Positions 13,442 through 58,037 of a stretch of DNA of 64,000 nt are shown piece by piece. The notes below the pieces were generated by a model that was not told where the DNA came from, made no database searches, and was given only the letters and a program-made list of their open reading frames with translations. Within the stretch, counting starts at the first letter, position 1. Each line of letters opens with the position of its first letter. The DNA lies in contig JAQUTA010000002.1 in assembly GCA_028709965.1 (NCBI GenBank), forward strand, positions 18,622 to 82,621. Direction: 5' to 3'. Origin of the DNA: Lutispora sp. Its GTDB lineage: Bacteria > Bacillota > Clostridia > Lutisporales > Lutisporaceae. Made by a program: the position numbers and the translations under genes.

Positions 13442-14098
13442 GTGGAAAGATTCAGCAGCATTTCTATGGCAGTAGTGAGAAGACTACCAAAATATCATAG
13501 GTACCTTTCAGAGTTGAAAAAGAATGATATCAAAAGAGTTTCGTCTCAGGAGCTCAGCAAGATTACAGGTTTTACCGCATCACAGATAAGGCAGGATTTG
13601 AACTGCTTCGGAGGCTTTGGACAGCAAGGCTATGGATATAATGTAGATGATTTGCATCAACAGATTAGCAAGATTCTGGGGCTTGATAGGATATATAACA
13701 CTGTTATTGTCGGCGCAGGCAACTTAGGGCAAGCTATTGTAAACTATACTTTTTTTGAGAAAAATGGATTTGTCACCAAAGCAATATTTGATGTAAATCC
13801 AAAGCTGGTGGGGCTTAAAATCAATGATATTAAGGTACATGATGTTGAAAACCTCGAAAGCTTTGTCAGGGAAAATGGTATTGACATAGGCATAATATGT
13901 ACCCCAAAGAACCAATGCCAAAAAGTTGCTGAGGCATTGGCAAATGGTGGAGTTCAGGCAATTTGGAATTTTGCACCCTCTGATGTCAATGTGCCTGAGG
14001 AAATTATAGTAGAAAACGTACATTTGAGTGAAAGTTTATTTACTGTTTCATATTTACTCAAGGAAAGAGAAGAACTTTTAAAAAGCAAAAAATATTGA
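13442..14098 (+). CDS. rex: Redox-sensing transcriptional repressor Rex
   Basis: RRLPKYHRYLSEL, ITGFTASQIRQDLNCFGGFGQQGYGY, VGAGNLGQAIVNY. Confidence 0.96.
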   Translation: MERFSSISMAVVRRLPKYHRYLSELKKNDIKRVSSQELSKITGFTASQIRQDLNCFGGFGQQGYGYNVDDLHQQISKILGLDRIYNTVIVGAGNLGQAIVNYTFFEKNGFVTKAIFDVNPKLVGLKINDIKVHDVENLESFVRENGIDIGIICTPKNQCQKVAEALANGGVQAIWNFAPSDVNVPEEIIVENVHLSESLFTVSYLLKEREELLKSKKY

Positions 14099-46547: not shown

Positions 46548-46612
46548 ATGGTTATAATTGCCGTTAGGAAGTATAATAGTAGATAAGAAATCTATATTTG
46601 GAGGTTATTGTT

Positions 46613-47107
46613 TTGGAGAGGTTAACCCATATCAATGAAGAAGGCTATGCAAAAATGGTGGATGTGTCTGAAAAAGAAGAGAGCATGAGAGAAGCGGTAG
46701 CACGGGGATCAGTTTATATGAAGAAAGGGACCATAAAAGCTGTTGCTGATGGCAAAATCAAAAAAGGCGATGTGTTGTCTGTGGCTCAAGTAGGTGGAAT
46801 AATGGGAGCAAAGAGTACTTCAGACATAATTCCCATGTGCCACAATATTAATATTTATGGCGCTGATCTGGATTTCAAAATAGATGAGGAAAACTGCAAG
46901 ATAGATATAATTGCAACAGTAAAAACCTATGGAGTAACAGGCGTGGAGATGGAAGCTTTGACGGCTGTGTCCATTGCAGCTCTTACCATCTATGACATGT
47001 GCAAGGCTATAGACAAGGAAATGGTGATATCAGATATACATTTGGTAAAAAAAACCGGCGGCAAATCAGGAGATTTTTATTTCACGGATTTAAACACAAA
47101 GTGCTAG
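46613..47107 (+). CDS. moaC: Cyclic pyranopterin monophosphate synthase MoaC
   Basis: [60 protein letters not shown]. Confidence 0.95.
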
Positions 47108-47325
47108 GGTATGCCACTCGGGTCTAGGGGAAACTGGAAACACGGATTCGCACGGATTTTTTCACGGATTAACACAGAGGGTATAGGTTAGAGTTGTAAA
47201 GAGGACATTTAAAGATATATATGATATATGCTGAGGATATTTTGTGAGATCGAGCGCTAGAAATGTCAAAGTGAGCTTTGATATCAGAAGCACATTCATA
47301 TATATAGAAAATAAGGAGGATGTTT

Positions 47326-47835
47326 ATGAGCAAGGAATTCACATTCACAGTTGGCATAATCACCGTCAGCGACAAAGGCTCAAAAGGAGAGAGAATAGAT
47401 GAATCAGGGCCTGCGGCAGAAGAATTGCTGAAGCCTGTTGGTGGTGTTATGAAAAAATACATAATTGTGCCGGATGAGAGAGAAGAAATAATGAAGGCAA
47501 TAATTAAAATGGCAGATGACTTAAAAGTTGATTTAGTATTAACAAGCGGCGGTACGGGTTTTTCACCTAGGGACGTGACTCCGGAAGCAACACTTGAGGT
47601 CATAGAAAAGCATGTGCCTGGTATACCTGAAGTCATGAGAGCAGAAAGCCTTAAGGTTACTCCAAAGGCAATGCTTTCTAGAGCAGCAGCTGGCATCAGA
47701 GGTAGAACATTGATCATAAATCTTCCCGGAAGCCCCAAAGGAGTCAGAGAGTGTCTGGGAGTAATAATTCCTGCACTGAAGCATGGAATAGAGACCCTTA
47801 GAGGAGAAGCTTCTGAATGTGCTGAGAAGCATTAA
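47326..47835 (+). CDS. Molybdopterin adenylyltransferase (MogA/MoaB family)
   Basis: IITVSDKGSKGERIDESGPAAEELL, TSGGTGFSPRDVTPEAT, LPGSPKGVRECL. Confidence 0.93.
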   Translation: MSKEFTFTVGIITVSDKGSKGERIDESGPAAEELLKPVGGVMKKYIIVPDEREEIMKAIIKMADDLKVDLVLTSGGTGFSPRDVTPEATLEVIEKHVPGIPEVMRAESLKVTPKAMLSRAAAGIRGRTLIINLPGSPKGVRECLGVIIPALKHGIETLRGEASECAEKH

Positions 47836-47899
47836 TAAATTTTATACGAAATACCATTGACATTAATATAACAATAATTTAGTATTAATATAACAAAAG

Positions 47900-48000
47900 A
47901 ATAACTCCGAGCCTATAATCCTAAGAGCTTTTGCTTATGGATTATAGGCCTATGGGTATGAATACAAATGTTCATGCCTCCCGTGTTTGGAAAGGAGCCG
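47900..48000 (+). ncRNA. Moco/Tuco-type riboswitch candidate 1
   Basis: AACTCCGAGCC-[CTATAATCC..GGATTATAG]-GCCTATGGGTATGAAT..ATGCCTCCCGTGTTTGGAAAGGAG; terminator follows. Confidence 0.85.
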
Positions 48001-48055
48001 TATGTATATGACAACTGTAATCTTTATGGTCTACAGGCTTGTTATGTTATTGCCG

Positions 48056-48082
48056 AAAAACTCCTTTTTAAGGAGTTTTTTT
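48056..48082 (+). terminator. Intrinsic terminator (riboswitch 1 expression platform)
   Basis: AAAAACTCCTTTTTAAGGAGTTTTTTT. Confidence 0.85.
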
Positions 48083-48125
48083 AATGTTCAATATTAAAAA
48101 GTTCATGACAAGGGGGATAAACCTT

Positions 48126-49862
48126 ATGGAAATGGTAAGATTGACAATTGATGGAATCCAAACTCAGGTACCTAAGGGAACAACGGTTTTGGAGGCTGCC
48201 AGAGGACTAAATATTAATATTCCGACTCTTTGTTTTCTAAAGGACATCAACGAGGTCGGTGCTTGCAGAATCTGTGTTGTAGAGGTAAAGGGAGCCAGAT
48301 CTCTCCAGGCATCCTGCGTTCTTCCTGTTGCAGAGGGGATGGAGATAAAAACTGCTTCAAAGAGCGTTAGAGAAGCCAGAACTGCAATTCTCAAGCTTAT
48401 CCTGGCCAGACATGAAAGAGAGTGTCTGACGTGCTCCAGAAACCTGAATTGTGAGCTTCAGAAGCTTTCTGAAGAAATGGGCATAGATGGATTGGATTAT
48501 CAAGGAGAAAAAATTACCTATTTGGTTGATCAGGCATCACCTTCAGTAGTCAGGGATCAGAACAAGTGCATACTTTGCGGAAGATGCATTAGCGTATGTA
48601 AGAATGTTCAAGGCACAGGAGTCATTGACTTTGCAAGAAGAGGCATAAAAACTACAGTTACAACTGCTTATGATAAAGGTCTATCAGAGGTTGCCTGTAT
48701 AAATTGCGGTCAATGCATAAAGATGTGCCCTGTAGGAGCGTTAAGAGAAAAGGATGACAGGGATAGGGTATGGGAAGCTCTGGAAAACAATAATATTTAT
48801 GTTGTTGCTCAGACTGCTCCTGCAGTTAGAGTTGCTTTGGGTGAAGAATTTGGTATGCCTGTAGGAACCAATGTAGAGGGGAAAATGGTAGCAGCCATTA
48901 GAAGACTAGGTTTTGATAAGGTATTTGATACAGATTTTGCTGCAGATTTGACAATTATAGAAGAAGGCACTGAACTTTTAGGCAGAATCAAAAATGGAGG
49001 GAAACTCCCTATGATCACTTCTTGCTCACCGGGATGGATCAAATACTGCGAGCATTATAATAATGATTTTCTTGACAATTTGTCAAGTTGCAAGTCTCCT
49101 CATCAGATGCTAGGTGCGTTGACCAAATCCTATTATGCAGAAAAGATGGGTATAGATCCGAAAAATATATTCGTTGTATCTATAATGCCTTGCACAGCCA
49201 AGAAATATGAGTCAGCAAGGGAAGAACTATCTGTAGATGGCCTAAAGGATGTGGATGCAGTACTTACCACAAGAGAGCTGGCCAAGATGATAAAAGAAGC
49301 AAGAATGGACTTCAAGACCTTAGCGGATGATAAATTTGACAAAATTATGGGTGAATCCACAGGTGCTGCAGTAATATTTGGTGCTACCGGAGGTGTTATG
49401 GAAGCAGCCCTCAGAACTGTAGCAGACATATTGACAGGTAAGGATCTGAAGAATATTGAGTATTCTCCCGTAAGAGGTCTAGAAGGTATCAAAGAAGCTG
49501 ATGTCAAGATTGGAGATCTTGATGTAAAAGTAGCAGTTGCTCACGGCACAGGCAATGCAGGCAAGCTTCTTGAAAGAGTTAGAAATGGAGAAGCAAATTA
49601 TCACTTTATAGAAGTAATGGGCTGCCCAGGTGGATGCATAAACGGTGGAGGACAGCCGATTATATTGGATAAAGAAAAGACGGCTGAAGTGTGCAAGCAA
49701 AGAGCTCAGAGTTTATATAATATTGACAGGGAGATGCCTTTGAGAAAATCCCACAATAATCCGGAAATAAAAGCTTTATATGATGAATACCTAGGAGAAG
49801 CCAACGGGCACAAAGCACACCATTTGCTCCATACCCATTATGTAAAGAGAGATAGGGTTTAG
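48126..49862 (+). CDS. [FeFe] hydrogenase catalytic subunit with N-terminal NuoG-like ferredoxin module
   Basis: 2Fe-2S GACRICVVEV, ferredoxin CILCGRCISVC / CINCGQCIKMCPVGAL; H-cluster motifs TSCSPGWIKYCE, MPCTAKKYE, FIEVMGCPGGCINGGGQP. Confidence 0.95.
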   Translation: MEMVRLTIDGIQTQVPKGTTVLEAARGLNINIPTLCFLKDINEVGACRICVVEVKGARSLQASCVLPVAEGMEIKTASKSVREARTAILKLILARHERECLTCSRNLNCELQKLSEEMGIDGLDYQGEKITYLVDQASPSVVRDQNKCILCGRCISVCKNVQGTGVIDFARRGIKTTVTTAYDKGLSEVACINCGQCIKMCPVGALREKDDRDRVWEALENNNIYVVAQTAPAVRVALGEEFGMPVGTNVEGKMVAAIRRLGFDKVFDTDFAADLTIIEEGTELLGRIKNGGKLPMITSCSPGWIKYCEHYNNDFLDNLSSCKSPHQMLGALTKSYYAEKMGIDPKNIFVVSIMPCTAKKYESAREELSVDGLKDVDAVLTTRELAKMIKEARMDFKTLADDKFDKIMGESTGAAVIFGATGGVMEAALRTVADILTGKDLKNIEYSPVRGLEGIKEADVKIGDLDVKVAVAHGTGNAGKLLERVRNGEANYHFIEVMGCPGGCINGGGQPIILDKEKTAEVCKQRAQSLYNIDREMPLRKSHNNPEIKALYDEYLGEANGHKAHHLLHTHYVKRDRV

Positions 49863-50354
49863 GTGATTAAATTGGATAAAAAAACAAATACATTAACAAG
49901 AGCAGCTATACTGCTCGCGGTAGCCTTGGTATTTCAATTTGTTAAGATGGGTCAGCTTATTACGGGTTCAGGCATAAACGCAGTACTCATAATAGCGACT
50001 CAGATATGTGGCTTGCCTTGGGCTGCAGCAATTGGAGCAATAACTCCCTTTATGTCTGTAGTTTTGGGAGTCAATCCCCCTGCATTGATTCCGGTGGTTC
50101 CATTTATTGTAGCCGGTAATATTTTATATGCAACTGCTTATTCTCTGTTAGAGAAACGAAGCAAGATTGCAGGAGTGGGTTTTGCAGCTTTGTTGAAATT
50201 TGGATTGCTATATTCTGCAGTAAACTATTTTGCAAACGTGAAACCGCCAATAAAGGTGGCGCTGAGCTTCCCTCAGCTGCTGACTGCTTTAATAGGTGGA
50301 GCTATAGCTCTTGTAATAATTCAGGTTTTGGAGAGAACCAATAAGGTTGAGTAA
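49863..50354 (+). CDS. Integral membrane protein, ECF transporter S-component-like
   Basis: LTRAAILLAVALVFQFVKMGQLITGSGINAVLIIATQICGLPWAAAIGAITPFMSVVLG; multi-TM. Confidence 0.6.
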   Translation: MIKLDKKTNTLTRAAILLAVALVFQFVKMGQLITGSGINAVLIIATQICGLPWAAAIGAITPFMSVVLGVNPPALIPVVPFIVAGNILYATAYSLLEKRSKIAGVGFAALLKFGLLYSAVNYFANVKPPIKVALSFPQLLTALIGGAIALVIIQVLERTNKVE

Positions 50355-50474
50355 TATTTATGAAATGTTGAACGAGCCTTCATTCAGTGTTAAATATTCC
50401 TTTAAGAAAGGATTAATCACTAGAACAGAATGACAATTAAGAATTGATTAAAATTGCTGACATTCCTTATATAG

Positions 50475-50530
50475 TAAAGATTAACTTTGCATTAACAAAT
50501 AGTGCAGGGTTAGTCTTTATTTTCTTGTTT
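50475..50530 (+). terminator. Candidate intrinsic terminator between the hydrogenase/ECF pair and the Fdh genes
   Basis: TAAAGATTAAC-TTTGCA...TGCAGG-GTTAGTCTTTA followed by TTTTCTTGTTT; imperfect stem. Confidence 0.45.
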
Positions 50531-50629
50531 ATTATTGACGATATTTTCACAATGAGTTATCATATAATTGCTGATAGTATTTACTAAATTTTTTGATTTT
50601 TACTATATTATTTTTTAGGGGGAGCTCGA

Positions 50630-51562
50630 ATGGAAATGATAAACTTGACTATTGATGGCATTCCGGTCAGAGTTGCTAAGGGTGCTACTGTTATGGAGGC
50701 TGCCAAAACCATTGGCATAGATATTCCGGCTCTATGTTATTTGAAGGATGTCAATGAAGTAGGTGCTTGTCGAATTTGTGTAGTTGAAGTAGAAAGAGCA
50801 AGGTCTCTTCAGGCTTCATGTGTTCTTCCCGCTGCTGAAGGCATGGTAGTGCATACAGAAAGTCCCAGTGTTATAGCAGCACGTAAAGAAATACTAAGAC
50901 TTATATTGGACAACCATCCCAATGATTGTTTAACCTGTGACAAAGCAGGAGAATGTAAACTTCAAGAGTATGCTTACAGATATGATGTTAAATTTAGAGA
51001 ACATGATGGAGATAGGAAAACAGCTAGAATAGACACATCAAACCCATACATTTATAGAGATGACAGTAAGTGTATTTTGTGTGGAAGATGCGTTAGCATA
51101 TGTGGTCAGATACAAGAAAGAAGTATATTAGGTTTTGGAAACAGAGGTTTTACTACCCATATAATTGCTGATAATGAAAAAGCATTAGGTGAATCAGCAT
51201 GTGTCTCTTGTGGAAGATGCATTAGTGTATGCCCAGTTGGAGCCCTTTTGGATAACAGGATTATTGGCAAGGCAAGAGCCTGGGAAGCACAGAAGGAAGA
51301 AGTAAAATGCAAAAGATGCGATTATGGCTGTGATTTTGAATTGTTGAAGAAAGATGATAAGGTAGTAGGTGTAAGGGCAAAAGCTCCGGGAGGTGGCAGA
51401 CCCTTGTGCTTGAAAGGGAAATTATCATTAGATCTTTTATATACAAATAGCCCATCAGCTCCTTTGATTAAAAAAGATGGAGAGTACACAGAAGTCACAT
51501 GGGCTGAAGCTCTAGAGATGGAAGATTTACTAAAGAAACTTGGACAGAGTAATAATTTATAA
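50630..51562 (+). CDS. NuoG/FdhA-like iron-sulfur protein lacking the molybdopterin catalytic domain
   Basis: 2Fe-2S + His-ligated + 2x4Fe-4S module, then CKRCDYGCDFELLKKDDKVVGV..LCLKGK (molybdopterin Fe4S4 domain); ends at EVTWAEALEMEDLLKKLGQSNNL. Confidence 0.85.
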   Translation: MEMINLTIDGIPVRVAKGATVMEAAKTIGIDIPALCYLKDVNEVGACRICVVEVERARSLQASCVLPAAEGMVVHTESPSVIAARKEILRLILDNHPNDCLTCDKAGECKLQEYAYRYDVKFREHDGDRKTARIDTSNPYIYRDDSKCILCGRCVSICGQIQERSILGFGNRGFTTHIIADNEKALGESACVSCGRCISVCPVGALLDNRIIGKARAWEAQKEEVKCKRCDYGCDFELLKKDDKVVGVRAKAPGGGRPLCLKGKLSLDLLYTNSPSAPLIKKDGEYTEVTWAEALEMEDLLKKLGQSNNL

Positions 51563-51596: not shown

Positions 51597-54275
51597 TTGG
51601 TGAATCTAACCATTAACGGGATTCAATTTCAGGCTGAAACTGGCTTGACCATTCTTCAGGCTGCCCGTACTCAAGGTATTTATATACCTACTTTATGTCA
51701 CGATGAAAGATTAGTAGCCCATGGAGCTTGTCGTATTTGCGTGGTAGAGGTAAAAGGTGCAAGAGCCCTTATGCCTTCATGCTCAACTCCCGCAGCAGAA
51801 GGTATGGTAATTGAAACCCAAAGCCCTACTGTGGTGGAAGCTCGTAAAGAAATATTGAGGCTCATGATTGAGAATCATCCTTTGGATTGCCTAACTTGTG
51901 AAAAGTCGGGGAATTGCACTCTGCAGAACTTATGCTATGAATATGATATTAAAGAAGGAGGCTTCAATGGGAAAAAGAAAAATTATCCCATTGATGACAG
52001 CAATCCTTTCTTCACATATGATCCCAACAAATGCATATTATGCGGCAGATGCGTTAGGGTAGATAATGAACTCCAATGCACAGGTGCAATAAACTTTATT
52101 GAAAGAGGCTTTAATACTCATGTTGGCGTTGCGGGGGATAGAGAATTTGATAATTCTGTCTGCGTTTCCTGCGGCAATTGCGTATCCGTATGTCCTGTAG
52201 GAGCTCTCATGCAAAAGCAACCTGAGAAATTCAGATATTGGGACATAGAAAAGGTTAGAACAACATGCTCTTATTGCGGCGTTGGCTGCCAAATGGATCT
52301 TTTAGTGAAAAATAATAAGGTAGTAGGGGTAGAACCCGTTGACATGGAACCCAATAATGGACTTCTTTGCGTAAAAGGTAAATTCGGCTATAAGTTCTTG
52401 AATCATCCAGACAGACTTAGAACTCCTCTGATCAGGAAAGATGGGGTGCTTAAGGAAGCAAGCTGGGATGAAGCTATGAATCTTATAGCATCAAAAATAA
52501 AAGATTTTAAGAAAGAAAGTGGACCTGAGGCTTTTGGAGCCTTATCCTCTGCTAGATGTACCAATGAGGAAAACTACCTCATGCAAAAATTATTCAGGGC
52601 GGTGATTGGCACTAATAATGTAGACCACTGTGCCCGTCTCTGACATTCCGCTACAGTTGCAGGTCTTGCAACTACATTTGGAAGCGGAGCCATGACTAAT
52701 GGAATTAATGAGCTTCTAGGCTCTGATGTAATACTTGTTATAGGTTCAAATACAACAGAAAACCATCCAGTTATAGGGTCGAAAATAAGACAGGCACTCA
52801 AATTAGGCACTAAGCTGATTGTTGCTGATCCAAGAAAGATTGAACTATCCAATGATGCAGATACCTATCTTCAGATCAGACCAGGCACCAACATTGCCCT
52901 TGTTAATGCAATGATGCATGTTATATTGAAGGAAGGCTTGGAGAACAAAGAGTTTATAAAAGAGAGAACAGAAAACTTTGAAAAGCTAGAAGATGCGGTC
53001 AAAGATTTCACTCCTGAGAAGGCCGCTGAAATTTGCGAAGTAGATCCGGAAGATATAAGAAAAGCTGCAAGATTATATGCCAAGGCAGAAAGAGGCAGCA
53101 TAGTATATTGCATGGGTATTACTCAGCATACCTCAGGCACTAATAATGTTATGAGCATGGCAAATCTTGCTATGCTATGCGGGCAGATAGGCCGTGAGTC
53201 TACTGGAGTCAATCCATTAAGAGGCCAGAATAATGTTCAGGGCGCTTGCGATATGGGAGCACTTCCCGGTACTTATACAGGCTATCAACCGGTAATTAAA
53301 CCAGAAGTAGCAGAAAAGTTTGCAAAGGCATGGGGAGTAGAAGAGCTTTCCTTAAAGGCTGGGCGAACTGTTTCTGATATGCTAAATGCAGCTGCTCATG
53401 GAGATATTAAGATGCTTTATATCATGGGAGAAAATCCAATGATATCTGATCCTGACTTAACCCATGTGAAGCATGCATTAGAACATACCGAATTTTTGGT
53501 AGTACAGGATATATTCCTTACTGAGACTGCAGAATTGGCAGATGTGGTACTTCCTGCCGCAGCTTTTGCGGAAAAGGACGGAACCTTCTCCAATACTGAA
53601 AGACGTGTTCAAAGGGTGAGAAAGGCTATAGATGCACCAGGTTTGGCAAAAGCAGACTGGGTGATCTTGATGGAGCTAATGAATAAACTTGGTTATAGCA
53701 AGACCTATAATAATCCTTCAGAAATATTTGAGGAGATTGCATCGTTGACACCTTCTTATGCAGGTATCGATTATGCAAGATTAGAAGAAAAAGGCATACA
53801 ATGGCCATGCCCCAACAAGGAACATCCTGGCACCTCATACCTTCACAAGGGTGTATTTGCCAGAGGAAAGGGTATGTTTATGGGCATAGATTATAAATAC
53901 CCGGCAGAGATGCCTGATGAAGAATACCCAATGACTCTTACCACCGGCAGAGTTCTGTATCAATATCATACAAGAACAATGACGGGCAAAGTAGAAGGTC
54001 TTAACAAGAAAGTTCCGGAAAGTTATGTAGAGATAAATCCGGATACAGCCTCTAAGCTAGGCATTGGCAATGGCGACAAGGTGAAGGTAAGCTCAAGAAG
54101 AGGAACCATAACAGTAAAGGCAAAAGTAAGCGATATAGTGGAAGAATCAGTAGTATTCATACCCTTCCACTTTGCTGAAGGCGCTGCCAATATGCTTACC
54201 AATGCAGCATTAGACCCAGGCTGCAAGATACCTGAATACAAGGTGTGCGCAGTAAATCTAGAAAAAGCAGTGTAA
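51597..54275 (+). CDS. fdhF: Formate dehydrogenase catalytic subunit, selenocysteine-containing (UGA at 52641-52643 decoded as Sec, codon 349)
   Basis: Track ORFs 51597-52643 and 52692-54275 are in the same frame (offset 1095 nt). Junction reads [29 protein letters not shown], matching the FdhF active site; C-terminal molybdopterin-binding domain intact. Confidence 0.95.
52641..52682 (+). promoter_or_regulatory. Bacterial SECIS-like hairpin following Sec UGA
   Basis: TGACATTCCGCTACAGTTGCAGGTCTTGCAACTACATTTGGA; GTTGCA-GGTCT-TGCAAC apical stem-loop, loop as in the E. coli fdhF SECIS. Confidence 0.85.
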
Positions 54276-57835: not shown

Positions 57836-57880
57836 AACCTTTGAAATAAATATAAATATATGTTATTTTAGATATAGTCA

Positions 57881-57979
57881 GATTTTCCGAGTTTAATTTT
57901 CTAAAGGTCAGCCCATGAAAATTAGACCGAAGGGTTCCGGTAGAAATACTGAAGCCTCCCGTATTTGGAAAGGAAAATT
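57881..57979 (+). ncRNA. Moco/Tuco-type riboswitch candidate 2
   Basis: GATTTTCCGAGTTT-[AATTTTC..GAAAATT]-AGACCGAAGGGTTCCGG..ACTGAAGCCTCCCGTATTTGGAAAGGAAAATTC; shares GCCTCCCGTRTTTGGAAAGGA core with candidate 1. Confidence 0.85.
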
Positions 57980-58002
57980 CAGATTCTATTAATTTAGAAT
58001 TG

Positions 58003-58037
58003 TAATGCAATCCTTTCGGGTTGCATTTATTTTTTTG
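58003..58037 (+). terminator. Intrinsic terminator (riboswitch 2 expression platform)
   Basis: AATGCAATCCTTTCGGGTTGCATTTATTTTTTT. Confidence 0.85.

Follow-up and report, generated by a model that had tools for sequence, protein, structure and literature searches.

A tungsten-cofactor-type riboswitch of probable OFF design before an [FeFe] hydrogenase gene of Lutispora may set hydrogen against formate as electron outlet

The position of a Moco/Tuco riboswitch directly before a gene for an [FeFe] hydrogenase, an enzyme that does not itself use Moco, raises the question of what a cofactor sensor might be doing there. The locus lies in a stretch of 64,000 nucleotides from a Lutispora genome (hereafter the window; the features described between 46598 and 58027 are all on the + strand), for which the initial annotation had proposed a riboswitch with its terminator at 47900-48082 and had suggested that the RNA may tune hydrogenase to cofactor status, for example so that the enzyme is made only when the Moco/Tuco partner can be made. 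A covariance-model search bears out the riboswitch: the aptamer at 47893-48013 matches RF01055 with 85.2 bits against a cut-off of 36 (cmscan, E 2.8e-19), and the leader at 47893-48082 folds with -66.3 kcal/mol (z = -7.6 versus shuffled sequences). By homology this RNA is a true Moco/Tuco riboswitch, its ligand presumably being Tuco. The 5' strand of P1 (CUCC, 47905-47908) and the P2 receptor CCUAAG...UAUGG can be followed in the cmscan alignment, in which the P3 columns are deleted; this places the aptamer in the proposed Tuco type. Regulski et al. (2008; PMC2408646) tied the P3-less form of the motif to the tungsten cofactor, and tungstate transporter genes are present in the same locus.

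Along the strand, the molybdopterin synthesis genes moaC and mogA (46598-47835; Pfam, NCBIfam) lie directly upstream, mogA ending at 47835, and are followed by a promoter predicted by consensus scan (TTGACA-17-TAGTAT, 47857-47885), for which a counterpart, TTGACA-17-TAGAAT, stands at the matching position in the related genomes G002 and G003; consensus matches around this site are not above chance overall. The aptamer, beginning at 47893, precedes hydA (48126-49862), whose product of 578 aa was recognised from the outset as an [FeFe] hydrogenase and is the catalytic subunit of a group A6 enzyme (NF040763, 922.7 bits against a cut-off of 765; PF02906, the H-cluster domain, 343 bits). Its start is most likely the ATG at 48126 instead of 48084, since the former and its Shine-Dalgarno sequence AAGGGGG (48110-48116) are conserved among relatives. 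An ECF transporter S component (49863-50354; PF12822, 37.4 bits against a cut-off of 30.7) comes next, as it does 3' of hydA in most members of the order. The initial annotation had set a possible terminator at 50475-50530 between these two genes and fdhF, and this division holds up: a terminator-like hairpin at 50474-50520 (-24.7 kcal/mol, z = -7.0) closes the hydA-ECF unit, and a putative promoter, TTGACG-17-TATCAT (50535-50563), recurs nearly unchanged upstream of the corresponding gene in G005, G013 and G018. The matching place holds a similar hairpin and TTGACG-17-TATTAT in G005 and a different hairpin with the same promoter in G018; in G013 this promoter is likewise present, preceded by a scaffold gap. 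What lies beyond is indeed a formate dehydrogenase (FDH) locus, albeit not in the form of a single fdhF: its first gene encodes a NuoG-like iron-sulfur protein of 310 aa (50630-51562; Fer2_4, NADH-G_4Fe-4S_3), and the second, fdhA (51597-54275; TIGR01591, 921 bits with read-through), encodes an 892-aa enzyme with selenocysteine at codon 349 (TGA, 52641-52643), the same single TGA being found in relatives. Because the terminator-promoter pair precedes the FDH genes and recurs in relatives, these appear, by sequence, to form their own transcription unit beyond riboswitch control, and there is no sign in the DNA of hydrogenase-FDH co-transcription under the riboswitch.

The direction of switching is suggested by the expression platform. 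The intrinsic terminator foreseen in the leader lies at 48056-48082 (AAAAACTCCTTTTTAAGGAGTTTTTTT; -11.5 kcal/mol) and has seven U residues, ending at 48082. The motif AAAGGAG (47991-47997) is the 3' strand of P1 and, judging from complementarity and two-state energies, also the 5' strand of an antiterminator whose 3' strand, CUCCUUU (48061-48067), belongs to the 5' arm of the terminator; the resulting duplex (-11.0 kcal/mol) is matched by only one of 162 unrelated terminators taken from the same loci. A second riboswitch of the window, before tupBCA and moeA (57873-57991; RF01055, 82.5 bits; P3 absent), has its terminator at 58004-58027 and an antiterminator of -9.8 kcal/mol; neither this value nor those of the G013 and G018 hydA leaders is reached by any of the 162. 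In the window hydA leader the terminator state (-66.3 kcal/mol) and the antiterminator state (-66.7 kcal/mol) are balanced, and when the nascent RNA is folded, the antiterminator is the predicted structure in each of the six hydA leaders of the order so examined and also in the tup leader. In those six the terminator stands clear of P1, and the P1 3' strand is the pairing partner of the terminator's 5' arm; G001 and G002 were outside this set, and both retain complementarity to the terminator arm. The automatic terminator finder picked other hairpins in G005, G020, G002, G003, G001 and G074, and G005, G020, G003 and G074 were refolded using named arms. The leaders of AOR genes, including the window genome's own, show the opposite geometry (AOR identity was confirmed by Pfam for the window genome and Eubacterium limosum, and rests on translated-start similarity in G005 and G007): there the 5' arm of the terminator and the 3' strand of P1 share nucleotides, and P1 formation would therefore break the terminator, which makes for an ON design.

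The hydA platform is thus probably, as far as folding models can tell, of OFF design, like that of the tungstate-uptake leader and opposite to that of AOR. Since Tuco would be expected to lower tungstate uptake and to raise AOR, both designs fit expectation, and hydA groups with uptake; hydrogenase would consequently be expected when the cofactor is scarce, and the dependence originally suggested, hydrogenase only alongside a cofactor-replete partner, probably runs in the reverse direction. Two other readings of the leader were considered and rejected. An ON reading, with the helix between the P1 3' strand and CUCC acting as terminator, would leave some 4 bp beside the U run to close a loop of almost 60 nt, where the canonical hairpin has 10-12 bp, and was discarded for this reason. 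Translational control, through AAGGAG in the terminator 3' arm and the ATG at 48084, was likewise discarded as the principal mode: the start conserved among relatives is that at 48126, and in G002 and G003 the stretch contains stop codons and offers no ATG close by.

We therefore favour, with a confidence somewhat better than even, the explanation that a P3-less RF01055 riboswitch acts as a transcriptional OFF switch on hydA-ECF, so that at low Tuco H2 replaces formate as the outlet. Without ligand, the nascent AAAGGAG of the P1 3' strand would pair with CUCCUUU in the terminator 5' arm and allow read-through into hydA; with cofactor bound, P1 would be held, the terminator would form and hydA would be off. 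Given that the neighbouring FDH has its own promoter and needs Tuco, hydA would be on when FDH cannot be completed: at low Tuco hydrogenase would be made and H2 released, whereas at high Tuco hydA would be off, FDH completed and formate made. H2 would in this way stand in for formate as an outlet for electrons from NADH and ferredoxin, probably via a shared diaphorase of the HydB/HydC type. The broader statement, that a tungsten-cofactor OFF riboswitch selects between formate (by a W/Se FDH) and H2 (by an iron-only hydrogenase), we hold to be about evenly balanced between right and wrong. A familiar counterpart exists in the B12 riboswitches of OFF type that precede B12-independent isoenzymes such as metE. 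The geometry and energies of the order-level hydA leaders point, on structural grounds, to an OFF platform, which would suit such a substitute logic, in which a cofactor represses a cofactor-independent replacement; the present case differs in its ligand and in that the substitute would carry out a different reaction, producing H2 instead of formate.

The distribution of the arrangement among relatives bears on these proposals. Among the 22 genomes of the order that were compared (G000 being that of the window), the riboswitch lies directly 5' of hydA in eight, G000, G001, G002, G003, G005, G013, G018 and G020, the G001 copy being only a weak relic. FDH lies 3' of hydA only in G000, G005 and G013; in G018 the riboswitch has an fdhA and fdhD on its upstream side, in G020 FDH lies on a different contig, and no FDH was found in G001, G003 or the 77%-complete G002. 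Because riboswitch-hydA is thus retained in five of the eight with no FDH downstream, the riboswitch is tied to hydA (or hydA-ECF) and not to fdh. The hydA aptamer has decayed in G001, G002 and G003, the tup aptamers of G002 and G003 being intact, which suggests that control may have lost its value along with FDH; these decays perhaps amount to one or two events, and a counter-example is provided by G162, where FDH is present and the hydA aptamer degenerate. At the hydA genes of G007, G008, G009 and G010 no riboswitch was detected.

Beyond the order, RF01055 was found in 52 of the 392 Clostridia genomes sampled, and a hydA search in the 40 of these that lie outside the order placed the riboswitch upstream of hydA in only one other family, family 22. 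Its members Ch29 and G074 carry riboswitch-hydC-hydB-hydA followed by hydC'-hydB'-fdhA, and G162 carries a degenerate riboswitch-hydA-ECF with hydCB located at FDH. The idea of a shared diaphorase arises from these arrangements, hydCB being duplicated beside hydA and fdhA in the first two and adjoining FDH in the third, and from the window genome itself, where hydC and hydB adjoin rnf with no hydA beside them. Judged by gene order, and leaving aside the sign of the family-22 platform (no antiterminator was predicted by nascent-RNA folding in any of three leaders of that family), the Ch29/G074 arrangement shows hydrogenase and FDH as what appear to be parallel outlets. Duplicated hydC-hydB modules, one before hydA and the other before fdhA, were seen at L030:6179-16821 and L195:5-9505; in L030 both copies encode identical proteins, and this suggests that the outlets can be exchanged on a single diaphorase. 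The usual arrangement among the hydA loci retrieved is hydC, hydB and hydA side by side, and among 80 hydA loci from named genomes a riboswitch lies near hydA in few (model R1), so that its use here would be a local invention and not a general rule. In the sister genus g3, a riboswitch situated after focA and before tup or other genes has P3 (L151:9165-9296, L158:10475-10606, L163:3073-3204, L160:9177-9307), and the hydA-associated copies of the same genomes are P3-less.

Such a regulation would be new with respect to what is described for the class. According to Regulski et al. (PMC2408646), RF01055 targets comprise cofactor synthesis, metal transport and cofactor-using enzymes; their text does not mention hydrogenase, although it does suggest that in S. 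wolfei Tuco may repress genes for an alternative enzyme. The same paper has the Moco RNA of E. coli unresponsive to Tuco. The window copy shares the sequence and structure of that aptamer in its P3-less form as well as a transcription-terminator platform, and differs in a target, hydrogenase, that falls outside the described classes. In Eubacterium limosum ATCC 8486 a Moco RNA has been reported before a 'hydrogenase complex' as one that may balance hydrogenase and FDH (PMC5651825); the genes of this operon (L193:7014-12917) code for AOR, NuoE, NuoF and two FeS proteins, one of them small, and no H-cluster domain was found among them. With AOR in the locus and no such domain, we rejected it as a precedent for [FeFe] hydrogenase; its platform is of ON type, where that of the window hydA is probably of OFF design. 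The single published pairing of Moco RNA and hydrogenase that we found hence rests on an AOR operon, and the literature searched, which leaves out most subscription journals, yielded no account of an [FeFe] hydrogenase under a riboswitch. In Pelobacter carbinolicus tungstate induced FDH activity and left hydrogenase activity unchanged (PMC4275255), from which it follows that the proposed regulation is not general. The enzyme as such resembles the NADH-dependent HydABC of group A6 in its domain plan, its family score and the genome's possession of homologues of HydB and HydC; what sets the window hydA apart is its separation from hydCB and its place in a cofactor-synthesis locus, preceded by a riboswitch. 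Here a riboswitch class already described would act on a target of a new kind, as a Tuco switch that calls up a cofactor-independent substitute. If this is true, tungsten supply is linked directly to an anaerobe's choice of H2 or formate as the electron carrier it releases, which matters for syntrophy and H2 yields; with what look like ON and OFF forms of a single riboswitch class side by side in one genome, the logic can be tested directly.

Other explanations of the locus fare less well. That hydrogenase and FDH form a complex of the formate-hydrogenlyase or CO2-reductase type, with the riboswitch turning hydA on in the presence of cofactor, is in our estimation unlikely: [FeFe] hydrogenase-FDH complexes are known (HDCR, the Hyt-FDH of C. 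autoethanogenum) and hydA and fdhA are neighbours in G007, G010, L042 and L067 (no riboswitch was detected in G007 and G010, nor in G009, where the two genes are less closely placed), but the platform is of OFF type, like tup and unlike AOR, FDH has a separate promoter, and riboswitch-hydA persists with no FDH downstream. Less credible is the proposal that the ECF S component is the real target, possibly importing something for cofactor synthesis, with hydA merely carried along. OFF switches are usual for uptake genes, the ECF gene follows hydA in most of the order and in G162 (at 30% identity), and another ECF operon of the window genome sits behind an RF01055 copy (the corresponding position in G013 falls in a scaffold gap and was outside this comparison); against this, hydA is always first and the sole catalytic gene, hydA-ECF also occurs with no riboswitch (G008, G009), and riboswitch-hydCBA occurs with no detected ECF gene in Ch29 and G074.

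We regard as highly improbable that the window copy is a decaying, unresponsive switch that imposes a constitutive attenuation on hydA. Its P4 loop reads CAAA (47965-47968), where 26 other aligned aptamers have GAAA, and because this replaces the usual tetraloop ligand binding may be weaker; related copies in G001, G002, G003 and G162 are, moreover, degenerate. The tetraloop is nonetheless common and not required, being absent in 5 of 176 published copies, and the window aptamer has the highest score of all hydA-associated RF01055 copies and retains every other strongly conserved position together with terminator and antiterminator. Least probable of all is a single transcript through fdhA, by which the riboswitch would in effect control FDH: the ECF and FeS genes are on the same strand only 276 bases apart and read-through of the 50474-50520 hairpin is conceivable, but the hairpin is strong, the promoter is conserved in four genomes, and five riboswitch-hydA genomes have no fdh downstream.

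The window genome, a 2.4 Mb assembly of 171 contigs and 88% completeness, carries RF01055 six times and a group A6 hydA once. Two further copies (L014:2502-7315, L015:1110-6729; G000:C144) have OFF-type platforms. Behind one of them come a nucleotide-pyrophosphatase-like gene and the genes for an ECF S component, a small protein with an Oxidored_molyb domain, EcfA/EcfA/EcfT and MobB; behind the other lies the gene of an S-layer protein of 1507 aa that also has an Oxidored_molyb domain. These genes could possibly form an import or scavenging system for a molybdopterin-type cofactor. Elsewhere in the genome (L018:3048-8712; G000:C133), NuoE- and NuoF-type genes are followed by one whose product of 1082 aa combines domains of pyridine-nucleotide reductase and molybdopterin-oxidoreductase type, a set that resembles the Sporomusa-type Nfn transhydrogenase. 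A Rex-family regulator gene lies at 13442-14098 of the window, and Rex-like sequences with two mismatches overlap the hydA promoter (47857-47874) and the fdh promoter (50535-50552), a pattern not clearly above chance (69 found versus 56 expected). An FMN riboswitch is located at 777-890 (116.9 bits).
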